Positions 14,854 to 25,555 of a DNA stretch of 53,579 nucleotides are shown here, one piece after another. The DNA comes from a virus. Numbering within the stretch: the first letter of the stretch is position 1; the number at the start of each line of letters is the position of its first letter. The stretch is taken from positions 1 through 53,579 of IMG/VR virus record IMGVR_UViG_3300046522_000740; one strand, given 5' to 3'. Below the pieces are notes generated by a model. That model saw nothing but the letters and a program-made list of their open reading frames with translations. It had not been told where the DNA came from and did not search any database. The position numbers and the translations under genes are program-made.

Positions 14854-14913
14854 AACGCTGGCCTCGGTTGATTTCCCGTCTGGCCCTGTCGCCAAGGCCA
14901 GCCAGTGAAGTCG

Positions 14914-15345: not shown

Positions 15346-15630
15346 ATGTCGCAGTATTTAGTGCGTGTTGAGCTATTTGGGGCGGACGGGGAAAACTATG
15401 AAATCCTTCATGAAAAAATGAAGCTTCTTGGCTTCTCAAGGACCGTCACTTTCACAGATGGGAAAAAGTATGCGCTTCCAATCGGCACCTACTTCGGCTC
15501 AAACCCATCCAACGCCACGCAAGTTCGCGACGCTGTTCGAAACGCTGCAAACCCACAATCTCCCCACAAGGGAGCTTCTGTTTTTATTTGTCAGTCTGCC
15601 GACTGGTCGGCTTGGCTATACGAAGACTGA
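15346..15630 (+). CDS. GhoS-like (DUF2622) protein
   Basis: 94-aa protein resembling the GhoS/DUF2622 family. It has a YLVRVELFGADGENYEILHEKM start, then GFSRTVTFTDGKKYALPIGTY, and a C-terminal VFICQSADWSAW strand, matching a ferredoxin-like Cas2-type fold. In Escherichia coli, GhoS is an endoribonuclease antitoxin that cleaves ghoT mRNA. No GhoT-like small membrane toxin follows here, so the role may be different or act on another RNA. AAGGA precedes ATG 15346. It lies on the plus strand against the operon and its 3' end overlaps the convergent gene by 40 bases. Confidence 0.7.
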   Translation: MSQYLVRVELFGADGENYEILHEKMKLLGFSRTVTFTDGKKYALPIGTYFGSNPSNATQVRDAVRNAANPQSPHKGASVFICQSADWSAWLYED

Positions 15631-15791
15631 TGCGAACCACAACCCATTGCCTGTCGGCCTTTAGGTATCTCGCTGGCCCAGTAGGCAAGGTGATTTGAAG
15701 CAATGGCGAAGGCTTCATCAAAGCTGATGCCTTCGTCCGTTGCGATCTCTTGAACGATATGGCGGAAGCGTTCAATCTGTTTTTCGTTCAT
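15591..15791 (-). CDS. Small hypothetical protein, first gene after PL leader
   Basis: 66-aa protein starting MNEKQIERFRHIVQEIATDEG, a helical N-terminal half followed by a Ser/Gln-rich tail. It would be the first gene transcribed from the candidate PL promoter, after a leader of about 365 bases, the position of lambda N. It is not obviously N-like, being only weakly basic. Its tail overlaps the convergent GhoS-like gene by 40 bases. Confidence 0.5.
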   Translation of the reverse strand: MNEKQIERFRHIVQEIATDEGISFDEAFAIASNHLAYWASEIPKGRQAMGCGSHQSSYSQADQSAD

Positions 15792-16157
15792 CTGCTGTAC
15801 CTGCTCTCCGCGTGGTCCTGAAGTAGGGCCACCTGGAGAGCATCCGGCCCACACTCGGCGGGCCGGTAATCTCTTCTCTTGCACAGGCCGACGGTCGCCT
15901 TCCCGTCAGTAGCTTCCAGCGCGACACGGGATCATGGTCCCAAGGCCAAACGCTTACTCGCCACCACGCAGCCTCTCCAGCTACGCCCTCCGAATGAGGT
16001 GTCCTGTGCCCAGCGCCGACATGAGGTCGAATCGCTGCATACCGTTGCGCGGTACGTCCGCTGGCTATGCATCGGCCAGCTCGGCGTTCATCTGGTTTTT
16101 AAAGAGCGGTGAGGCTTGAGGGCCTCCCGAGGGGCTGTGTAGCTTGCCGTCTCGATG
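15792..16157 (-). ncRNA. Candidate structured leader RNA of the PL transcript
   Basis: About 365 bases without a convincing gene, transcribed leftward if the PL assignment is right. On the minus strand I see several hairpins: GGCCC with GGGCC (15849-15867), GACGG with CCGTC (near 15885-15905), and GGGA with TCCC around CATGA (15929-15942). A boxA-like element lies upstream at 16091-16110. This layout suggests an antitermination leader of the nut or put type. The plus-strand frame here has no ribosome site. Confidence 0.45.
16091..16110 (-). promoter_or_regulatory. boxA-like antitermination element
   Basis: The minus strand reads CCGCTCTTTAAAAACC, close to the ribosomal-operon boxA (GCTCTTTAA core) bound by NusB/NusE. 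It lies about 50 bases downstream of the predicted PL start, as nutL does in lambda. A clear boxB hairpin right after it is not obvious. Confidence 0.5.
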
Positions 16158-16163
16158 GATGTA

Positions 16164-16192
16164 AATATGTACCACTGGTTCACAGTCGTCAA
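16164..16192 (-). promoter_or_regulatory. Candidate leftward early promoter PL
   Basis: On the minus strand -35 TTGACG (16192-16187) and -10 CATATT (16169-16164) are separated by 17 bases. The -10 box and the region just beyond -35 are covered by operator-like sites that match those at the cI/cro promoter. Transcription would start near 16157 and run toward the recombination genes and integrase. Confidence 0.65.
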
Positions 16193-16206
16193 GTACCAAA
16201 AGTACA
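16168..16206. promoter_or_regulatory. Two CI/Cro operator-like sites (OL)
   Basis: TGTAC-cactg-GTTCA (16168-16182) and AGTAC-caaaa-GTACA (16192-16206) fit the TGNAC-N5-GTNCA pattern seen at the cI/cro promoter and are centred 24 bp apart, the same spacing as there. They overlap the candidate PL promoter. They were recognised by comparison within this sequence only. Confidence 0.65.
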
Positions 16207-16224: not shown

Positions 16225-16249
16225 AAAAAAGCCCGCGCTAGGCGGGCTT
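16225..16249 (-). terminator. Intrinsic terminator after the BamE-like gene
   Basis: On the minus strand AAGCCCGCC and GCGGGCTT form a stem with a short loop followed by TTTTTT. It would end transcripts coming from the cI side, separating the lysogenic unit from PL. Confidence 0.8.
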
Positions 16250-18146: not shown

Positions 18147-18899
18147 CTAGAGGACTCCGCCACGCCAAATTACGCGACCCAGGATTCGGTGCTCATGGAT
18201 CTCGCCGTCCGGCACCTTAAGATCCGCATAGAGTGCTTTGTCTGGGTTATCGCTGCGAATTATCCAACCCTCGAGGTCGGAGAAGATCAGACGCTTGACG
18301 ATGGCGCCCTTATTCTCGCTGAAGAGCGCGAAAACCTGGCCGTCCACAGGATCGACGTGTGACTCATCAATCAGCAAAACGTCGCGGTCACTTATGGTTG
18401 GCTCCATGCTTGAACCCTGCGCGTAAATTACCTTCAGGTTCTTCGGGTTTAGCGCCATGAACCGGATCCACTCGCGCTTGAATGCAAGCGTCCCCCTAAC
18501 CTCGACATGGTCGTTGGATTGACCTGGCCCCGCCGAAACAAGGGCGGTGTACTGCTTGATGTGGACGTACGCGTCTTCTTCGTCATCCTCAGTAGGGAAG
18601 GCGGGGATGTCGGCTGGCTGTGCCGCCAATGGCTTCAGGGTTTCATGATCGCCATCCCGCATTCCGCCGCGCCCGTACTCCAGCCACTCAACCCGGACCT
18701 TGAGCGCGGATGCCAGGGCAAGCATCTTGGCCCCGCCTGGCATCGACTCTCCGTTTAGCCACTTGCTACTGGCCTTGGGTGTGACCCCGGCCAGTTTCGC
18801 AAGGCGAGCACCACCGCCCCACGACGGAATATCGTTGGCAAGCAGGGCTTCTCTCAAGCGCGCCGCGAAGGCCGCTCGTATTTCTTCTATCTGAACCAT
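18147..18899 (-). CDS. cI: CI-type phage repressor (LexA/S24 family)
   Basis: 250-aa lysogeny repressor. The N-terminal HTH is GGARLAKLAGVTPKASSKWL (about 29-48). The C-terminal S24 domain has the cleavage site A123-G124 in VSAGPG, catalytic S164 in GSSMEPT and K202 in GAIVKRL, so it should self-cleave with activated RecA during the SOS response. I place the start at ATG 18899: a GATATT -10 box ends six bases before it, which would give a leaderless mRNA as for lambda cI. An upstream ATG at 18944 also lacks a ribosome site and lies within the operator region. Confidence 0.93.
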   Translation of the reverse strand: MVQIEEIRAAFAARLREALLANDIPSWGGGARLAKLAGVTPKASSKWLNGESMPGGAKMLALASALKVRVEWLEYGRGGMRDGDHETLKPLAAQPADIPAFPTEDDEEDAYVHIKQYTALVSAGPGQSNDHVEVRGTLAFKREWIRFMALNPKNLKVIYAQGSSMEPTISDRDVLLIDESHVDPVDGQVFALFSENKGAIVKRLIFSDLEGWIIRSDNPDKALYADLKVPDGEIHEHRILGRVIWRGGVL

Positions 18900-18905
18900 A
18901 GGTTC

Positions 18906-18935
18906 AATATCGCACGCGCTTGCATGTACTTTCAG
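18906..18935 (-). promoter_or_regulatory. Candidate PRM promoter for cI
   Basis: On the minus strand the -10 box is GATATT (18911-18906), with a weak -35 CTGAAA about 18 bases upstream. The predicted start falls on the A of ATG 18899. A weak -35 suggests dependence on activation by bound CI, as in lambda. Confidence 0.5.
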
Positions 18936-18947
18936 TTCCGACATAAT
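18920..18947 (+). promoter_or_regulatory. Candidate PR promoter for cro
   Basis: -35 TTGCAT (18920-18925) and -10 CATAAT (18942-18947) are separated by 16 bases. One operator lies in the spacer and another begins immediately at and after the -10 box, so repressor binding would block it. Confidence 0.65.
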
Positions 18948-18982
18948 ATGTACTGACAGTTCATATTTCGTTTGGAGGCCCC

Positions 18983-19222
18983 ATGCAGGAGCTCAAGAAG
19001 GCAATCGATGATGCAGGTGGCGTAACTGCCGTTGCTCTCGCTTGCGGGAAAACGCCGCGCGCCGTCTACAAGTGGCTCACCGCTGGCTGCCTCCCGCGCA
19101 CCGAATACACCGGCGAAACAACCTACGCCGAAAAAATCGCAGTCTTGGCAAAGGCCAATGGCAAGCCATTCAAGGCTCAGCGCCTTCTGGCTACCACTGC
19201 GCCAGCCAAGACCGCCGCCTAA
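18983..19222 (+). CDS. cro: Cro-like repressor (YdaS-type HTH)
   Basis: 79-aa DNA-binding protein divergent from cI. The HTH is [21 protein letters not shown] (about 12-32), of the Cro/YdaS type that compares with Cro of lambdoid phages. TTTGGAGG precedes ATG 18983, and PR with two operators lies immediately upstream. It should compete with CI for the same sites and favour lytic growth. Confidence 0.88.
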
Positions 19223-24359: not shown

Positions 24360-24502
24360 CACCAGCATGGGGATTCCTGATTTTGGCCACCCTCATGGTG
24401 GTGGGTGGTGTGGCGTTGTCCTGGGCTGGGGCAGTGCGCCGCAAGCGCAGCTACGAAGAATTCATTTTGAGCGAGGCCAAGCGGACAGGGGGTGGGCAAT
24501 GA
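24356..24502 (+). CDS. Small single-TM protein
   Basis: 48-aa protein with one N-terminal membrane span (TPAWGFLILATLMVVGGVAL) and a charged cytoplasmic tail (RRKRSYEEFILSEAKR). GAGGAGG precedes the ATG, which overlaps the ninG stop by four bases. Its own stop overlaps the next gene in the same way. Function unknown. Confidence 0.7.
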   Translation: MTPAWGFLILATLMVVGGVALSWAGAVRRKRSYEEFILSEAKRTGGGQ

Positions 24503-25188
24503 ACTATCAGAACGTGGTATCGGCAGTGGTTCGCGCTCTGGCGGCTGAGACCATGAGCGGTGTGGGTGGTGGCGACTTCGAACCAAAGGTCCAGGCGTCG
24601 AAGCTGAAGGGCGAGATCACCGGGAAGGATGCGGCGATGCTGGTGGACTGCTGGGTGCACGCTCGCCTGCACAGCAAGCTGATCCCCCGCCACTGGAATG
24701 CTCTGACGGCCAGGTTCTCGACCCACAAGGCCAAGAAGGTGGATGCGATCGGCAAGCTGGTGCCGCTGATCGCCACTCAGGCTCCGAACCTGTTCCGGTA
24801 CAAGGCGGTGACGGCCTGGGCCATCCCTCCGGTCAAAGGCGTGCAGGCGCAGTCCGGCAATGAGGTGGCCAGCCGCTCTGCCCGTGAACGTGCTGAGTTC
24901 GATTCGTTGCACGCTGGTGTGGTCAAGCAACTGGCTGGCGGCGAGATGCCCGAGGACGCAGGCCAGGCGCGCCGCGAGCAGTACGTGAAGCGCTCCACCG
25001 ACATGATCGTGCTACCGGCCGAGTTCTACGACATCAACACCTGGGATGGGCAGGGACTGAACCGGACCACTTACTGGCGCTGGAAGAAGGCCATCGAGAA
25101 GGTGCTGGATGAGATGGTGGCCGAGGCTCTGGCTGCCTCCAGCAAGATTCTGGAAGAGGAAGGCGTTTTGATGGCAACTGCCGCTTGA
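24499..25188 (+). CDS. DUF1133-like protein in Q antiterminator position
   Basis: 229-aa protein ending the early right operon, where lambda Q sits. The C-terminal part VLPAEFYDINTWDGQGLNRTTYWRWKKAIEKVL resembles the DUF1133 phage family, suspected to be late-gene antiterminators; a helix-turn-helix-like turn is visible there. Two strong terminators follow it. The antitermination role is inferred from position and family, not from a known active site. Confidence 0.65.
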   Translation: MNYQNVVSAVVRALAAETMSGVGGGDFEPKVQASKLKGEITGKDAAMLVDCWVHARLHSKLIPRHWNALTARFSTHKAKKVDAIGKLVPLIATQAPNLFRYKAVTAWAIPPVKGVQAQSGNEVASRSARERAEFDSLHAGVVKQLAGGEMPEDAGQARREQYVKRSTDMIVLPAEFYDINTWDGQGLNRTTYWRWKKAIEKVLDEMVAEALAASSKILEEEGVLMATAA

Positions 25189-25261: not shown

Positions 25262-25337
25262 CCCGGCCAAGTGCCGGGTTTTTTATTGGCCCCACGAGGG
25301 CCTCAAGAGTCCCGGCCATTGAGCCGGGATTTTTGTT
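25262..25337 (+). terminator. Two tandem intrinsic terminators
   Basis: CCCGGC/GCCGGG followed by TTTTTT (25262-25286) and TCCCGGC/GCCGGGA followed by TTTTT (25310-25337) close the early right operon. Between the Q-like stop and hicB (25189-25555) I see no gene; a late promoter is expected but not clearly visible. Confidence 0.85.
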
Positions 25338-25555
25338 TCAGCAGTAAACGCAACTGCAGCCAGGGCAGGCCCTAACAGGACAGCCTGGACACTGCTAGCC
25401 GGTAGTGTGGTGTACGGAAAAACACCGGCAGCCCGCGCATCCACTCCCTCACTATGCAGGTGGATGGCGCGAGACTGGACCGGCGAGACTGGTGCATCAG
25501 GGTGCCAGCGCTGGAATGGTCTTCGGCGGACAGGTGGGGAAAGACCCACGCAAAT

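Follow-up and report, generated by a model that had tools for sequence, protein, structure and literature searches.

A boxA-bearing, covarying leader RNA in Pseudomonas phages is a candidate antitermination element of the left operon

Antitermination in rrn operons involves a boxB-boxA-boxC leader together with NusA, NusB, NusE, NusG, SuhB and S4. Among phages, lambda nutL combines boxA and boxB with the N protein, and antitermination by RNA alone is, to our knowledge, known chiefly from put of HK022. The put RNA, ~70 nt with two stem-loops, has one copy at PL and another at PR, and its binding partner is the beta' zinc-binding domain of RNA polymerase (PMC9378689). In rrn operons boxA is bound by NusB and has been described as both necessary and sufficient to recruit the factors, N protein is unneeded, and the presence of boxB has been called puzzling (PMC10250234).

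We examined the left-operon leader of a temperate phage of Pseudomonas type held in IMG/VR (record IMGVR_UViG_3300046522_000740); the window is the whole 53,579-nt stretch analyzed. The left arm, on the minus strand, begins at the immunity region and continues through recombination genes (RecT-like and exonuclease); beyond these come a methyltransferase-like gene and, at 1-1179, an integrase-like gene, both recognized by sequence inspection only. From PL to the integrase-like gene, the left operon measures ~15 kb. The leader lies between a terminator-like hairpin and the first left gene (Table 1). No family in Rfam 15 matched the leader above its gathering score, and no paper describing this RNA was found in open full texts.

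Table 1. Positions of the leader RNA elements and neighboring features in the window
Feature	Position	Strand	Remark
First left-operon gene	15591..15791	-	66 aa (MNEKQIER...), family unknown; unrelated genes replace it in other carriers
3' hairpin module, exchangeable	15792..15874	-	precedes first gene; homologues have two or more alternative types
P4 3' strand CCUGUGC	15881..15887	-	alignment support
H8 CUGACGG (GAAGGCGA) CCGUCGG	15888..15909	-	inside P4; inner pairs conserved
H6 GCGUAGCU (GGAGA) GGCUGCGU	15966..15986	-	inside P4; five pairs with double changes
H5 CCUC (AUUCG) GAGG	15987..15999	-	inside P4; few changes, weakly tested
P4 5' strand GCACAGG	16003..16009	-	pairs with 15887-15881
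H3 CAGCG..CGAC (CUCAU) GUCG.CGCUG	16011..16037	-	outer and inner helices both covary
H2 CGUACCG (CGCAA) CGGUAUG	16038..16056	-	four pairs with double changes among homologues
H1 GCUGGC (CGAUGCAUA) GCCAGC	16060..16080	-	GCAUA at loop end shared by classes A and C
boxA GCTCTTTAAAAA	16096..16107	-	word match and conserved position in homologues
Hairpin GAGGC CCTCAA GCCTC	16111..16126	-	immediately precedes boxA, where rrn leaders have boxB
PL promoter, -35 TTGACG (16192-16187), 17 nt, -10 CATATT (16169-16164)	16164..16192	-	scan and conservation
Probable CI/Cro operator, GTAC-N5-GTTC, 13 bp	16169..16181	.	overlaps PL; pattern match
Terminator-like hairpin, intrinsic type (GCCCGCC TA GCGCGGGC TTTTTT)	16225..16247	-	directly upstream of PL; sequence
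CI-like repressor (HTH, peptidase S24)	18147..18944	-	upstream of PL, same strand; PHROG/Pfam-type annotation
Two further GTAC-N5-GTTC sites	18926-18938, 18950-18962		at PR; pattern match
Cro-like gene	18983-19222		part of immunity region

The initial annotation had placed a candidate PL promoter upstream of the leader and a boxA-like element near the ribosomal form within it, and comparison of homologous loci bears out both. Our promoter scan flags PL, yet promoter-like matches across the region stand at chance level only. When we searched homologous loci for a sigma-70-like promoter with at least 9 of 12 matches, no more than 130 nt upstream of boxA, one was present in 59% of 90 distinct loci compared to 1.5% of control stretches. 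The -10 box of these promoters mostly ends 45-57 nt before boxA. Because a promoter upstream of boxA is conserved across loci, a transcription start near 16157 is plausible, and boxA would appear ~50 nt into the transcript. Sites of the form GTAC-N5-GTTC number four in the window (0.55 expected); since the one overlapping PL recurs twice at PR, PL is very probably under CI control. We also inspected 20 phage records, whole or nearly whole and including the window. A CI-like repressor was detected in 18 (none in G420 or G408), and in all 18 it lies upstream of the element on the same strand, 0.2-6.7 kb away. Sequence similar to the terminator-like hairpin is likewise found upstream of the element in other phages (blastn pieces at ~16249-16222 in L001, L002, L003, L006 and L007).

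The leader boxA matches the rrn type, GCTCTTTAA(A/C)AA, and shares its core with boxA of the E. coli rrnB leader, GCTCTTTAACAA. We used E. coli rrnB as the reference because a search for the host rrn boxA with TGCTCTTTAACAA gave no match in two Pseudomonas genomes. The boxA word with two mismatches is not rare (2 found, 2.9 expected), and the evidential weight of boxA is its conserved position, not the word itself. A hairpin of variable sequence sits just upstream of boxA in 61% of 84 loci, compared to 26% of shuffles. The leader resembles the rrn leader in its boxA core, and the hairpin often placed just before boxA may be a counterpart of boxB. Unlike the rrn leader, it adds a dedicated structured RNA, is driven by a phage PL promoter with a CI-type operator, and leads the left operon of phages and prophages rather than rRNA.

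The conserved part of the leader extends from boxA to about 15875 (~230 nt) and comprises H1, H2, H3 and a 3' domain closed by P4. P4 (helix 5) is a long-range helix that pairs GCAyAGG with CCUrUGC, or GCAUGGG with CCCAUGC in L001, and encloses the 3' domain; it is 99.4% paired, with double changes at four pairs. The outer pairs of H8 are kept only in part and are weakly tested. At least three hairpins had been proposed for the leader, and we find more than three. A single-sequence fold of the window leader yields the same helices as the alignments.

We counted compensatory changes in three alignments. The 114-nt core (43 sequences) has 22 pairs, 99.2% paired and 8 doubly changed; the longer element (24 sequences) has 48 pairs, 97.1% paired and 18 doubly changed; and class C, a sister class described below (17 sequences), has 33 pairs, 97.5% paired and 10 doubly changed. 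All three alignments exceeded shuffles on most measures and also surpassed every slid control; the count of further pair types was not above shuffles for class C. Alignments A3 and A4 were folded first and then counted on the same sequences and so lean towards structure, which is why slid and simulated controls were used. Since related sequences can mislead counts of pair changes, we added phylogeny-aware simulations in which the same substitutions were placed on a FastTree phylogeny, either at random or by column rate. In none of the three alignments did any of the 300 simulations match the observed level of pairing or the observed numbers of doubly changed pairs or cells. The covariation check proposed at the outset therefore gave a strong result, and we regard the covariation as decisive for a real RNA fold. 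The fold energy of the whole leader is below that of shuffles (z -2.67); for the conserved part with the 5' end it is unexceptional (z -0.81), and we rejected fold energy as evidence for the conserved part because it is too weak alone.

Judged by sequence comparison, the leader core is a new RNA family. By blastn, the stretch from about boxA onward is present in many Pseudomonas phages at ~77-86% identity. Exact-pattern scans of viral and bacterial contigs, after removal of unrelated matches without boxA, returned 113 boxA-bearing matches. Of these, 87 have the class A hairpin, L069 is a further class A variant, and the remaining 25 belong to class C. Two class C members added by hand bring that class to 27, and class A numbers up to 88; these counts are upper bounds on distinct phages because some matches are separate fetches of the same or a near-identical phage. 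The alignments were built from 43 different class A cores and 17 different sequences of class C. In class C the first hairpin reads GCCUGC AGGCAUA GCAGGC, so that the H1 stem becomes GCCUGC/GCAGGC between classes. Both classes keep boxA, which sits beside the conserved hairpin throughout; they also share the GCCGAGC that opens this hairpin and the GCAUA that ends its loop, and H1 and P4 are retained in class C as well.

Carriers are phages and prophages of Pseudomonas and Azotobacter, with a divergent class A copy in Azotobacter chroococcum. An R1 match (E <= 0.001) was found in 17 of 400 Pseudomonas species genomes, 14 of them strong; two weak matches (L138 and L139) are class C, and a third match, L140, lacks boxA and is probably a spurious chance match. 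Among 392 order-level and 369 class-level genomes sampled, only the Pseudomonas centre genome itself matched. One copy per phage is the rule. We found no convincing second copy at PR in the window, where other matches reach at most 14 bits, or in other carriers, where an extra 19-bit match on the other strand of G417 was judged to be chance. In L095 and L137, unrelated sequence cuts the leader off after H3, an arrangement that resembles a recombination joint or a prophage remnant. Seven further loci (L067, L068, L071, L073, L076, L077 and L078), which we call class B, have boxA followed by another conserved structured RNA (GATGAGCCTAGCCAGCCGTAGCGGGTAACGCC...); a CI-like gene precedes it on the same strand in six loci, and its R1 match is only marginal. 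In these other phages, the class B boxA-RNA occupies the same position as the leader described here and is either unrelated to it or a very remote relative.

Promoter context, boxA, fold, conservation and position of the element, and the lack of a detected shared protein, are all established by comparison among carriers. Building on these, we think it reasonably probable that the leader acts in cis as an antitermination RNA for the left operon and engages host Nus factors through boxA without a dedicated phage protein. In such a mechanism, the PL transcript would expose the rrn-type boxA ~50 nt in, followed by the conserved ~230-nt fold. boxA would bring host NusB-S10 to the elongating polymerase, together with NusA, NusG and perhaps SuhB. 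The structured RNA would contact polymerase or a Nus factor and so stabilize the boxA-Nus complex; the portion of this RNA best preserved between classes is H1, whose loop ends in GCAUA. We infer that the ~15-kb left operon would then be read through past Rho-dependent and perhaps intrinsic terminators, with host proteins as the only ligands needed. Resistance to intrinsic terminators is conjecture, since boxA alone acts mainly against Rho. Counting against the proposal, terminator-like sites in the left arm were not above chance in our scan (15 found, 14.9 expected), and we rejected strong left-arm terminators as readthrough targets.

boxA might instead only shield the long untranslated leader against Rho, as it does for rRNA, with the structured RNA serving another purpose, for example a trans-acting or anti-host one on induction. 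The RNA is large, conserved and modular, exceeds what put needs, and is independent of neighboring genes, all of which would suit such a role. However, CI and PL precede the element in every checkable carrier, no terminator is seen that would release a discrete RNA, and the 3' part is exchangeable right up to the first gene. We therefore consider this explanation unlikely.

If the leader were instead a nut-like site, a phage N-type protein would bind H1, as boxB, beside boxA. The order of boxA, spacer and hairpin in a PL leader adjoining the immunity region does resemble lambda nutL. To look for such a protein, we compared all ORFs of nine carriers to 20 records by tblastn. No protein was common to 14 of 14 class A carriers, although very small or fast-evolving N-like proteins could escape tblastn. 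The ORFs found in all 14 lie inside the RNA only, and the next most widespread is NinG (11 of 14). The first left gene product, described at the outset as not resembling lambda N, has no match in PHROG or Pfam, and first genes are unrelated between carriers. The RNA is also far larger and better conserved than an N-boxB pair requires and, in contrast to nutL, includes long-range pairing. A nut-like site is thus quite improbable. Because no protein is common to carriers, and a phage-encoded ligand would be expected in no fewer phages than the RNA, the ligand of the leader RNA is probably host-encoded. The initial annotation had left open whether the RNA itself or a distinct factor acts here; the same result favors the RNA itself, whereas the likeness to put that had been suggested with it holds only in part, as discussed below.

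A 273-aa protein of family phrog_3412 (unknown) is encoded at 24367-25188 (+) in the window, between NinG and the late region, which would be a fitting place for a Q-type regulator. Among carriers, 5 of 13 in class A and 5 of 6 in class C have this protein.

We also considered that the leader is a 5' UTR element controlling mRNA stability, processing or translation of the first gene. Its hairpins reach the ribosome-binding site, and the 3' module of some leaders resembles a hairpin before another left gene. Yet the first gene differs between carriers, being CsrA-like in some and a small MNEKQIER...-like protein in others, while the 5' 230 nt stay constant. The median pairwise identity of the core is 93.6%, whereas that of first-gene DNA is 60.0%, at chance level (59.3% in shuffled sequence), indicating that the element is under selection of its own. 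This explanation also leaves boxA unaccounted for, and we rate it as no more probable than a nut-like site. Protein-coding or DNA-level conservation (an antisense ORF or an operator array) is largely refuted and very improbable: one antisense frame is stop-free in 39 of 43 cores, but the compensatory changes across the 48-pair structure exceed all phylogenetic simulations, one clade has a 2-nt deletion in the H3 loop, and the start of the sense mini-ORF MNAELADA* is missing from L028, L039, L056 and class C. We rejected both frames; no sense frame stays open in the core of homologues, which agrees, for the conserved part, with the original description of the leader as gene-free.

The hairpin before another left gene lies at 14859-14912 (-) in the window, where GGCTGGCC..GGGCCAG is followed by GGGAAATCAACCG; it is 93-100% identical in phiPSA1, psageB2, Aurca01 and others, resembles the 3' module found in PL leaders L156 and L169, and is apparently a mobile RNA hairpin before early genes. 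In L014, L036, L102 and L124, the first left-operon gene after the leader encodes a phage CsrA-like protein (MLILTRRVGETIRI...).

Returning to antitermination by the leader RNA itself, the element, like HK022 put (putL/putR), is an RNA that leads a phage early operon, with neighboring hairpins following PL, and its proposed action is free of phage protein. Unlike put, it has boxA, is about three times longer at ~230 nt, forms at least seven helices including a long-range one, and is single-copy per phage rather than present at both PL and PR. No counterpart was found in HK022 20000-40751, where the best R1 match scores 8.4 bits (E 0.59). On size, the two stem-loops and two copies of put, and homology, we rejected the leader as a member of the put family; if the inference holds, it would be put-like in logic and outside that family. 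More tentatively, the leader may represent a third antitermination design, between lambda nut/N and HK022 put, in which the ribosomal boxA-Nus machinery would be locked by a large self-folding RNA with no antiterminator protein, in at least two related classes (A and C) plus class B.

Since only the left operon carries the element, the right operon must be served otherwise. A distinct structured RNA, Proteo-phage-1 (RF03044), is present in some of the same phages. In the window it lies in the right arm at 25354-25433 (+), just after a terminator-like hairpin (~25310-25335), and in five of five records above the cut-off it is on the strand opposite the PL leader, 9-11 kb away. It is possibly a late or right-operon counterpart of the PL leader.

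These findings describe a well-supported RNA family missed by annotation, and some phage records call hypothetical genes across the element. If the proposed mechanism is true, it would explain how a long left operon is expressed without N protein. How boxA-bound Nus factors form a stable N-free antitermination complex is not fully settled, and these Pseudomonas phages, a widespread group whose conserved RNA joins boxA to a large fold, would offer a natural test system open to mutation.
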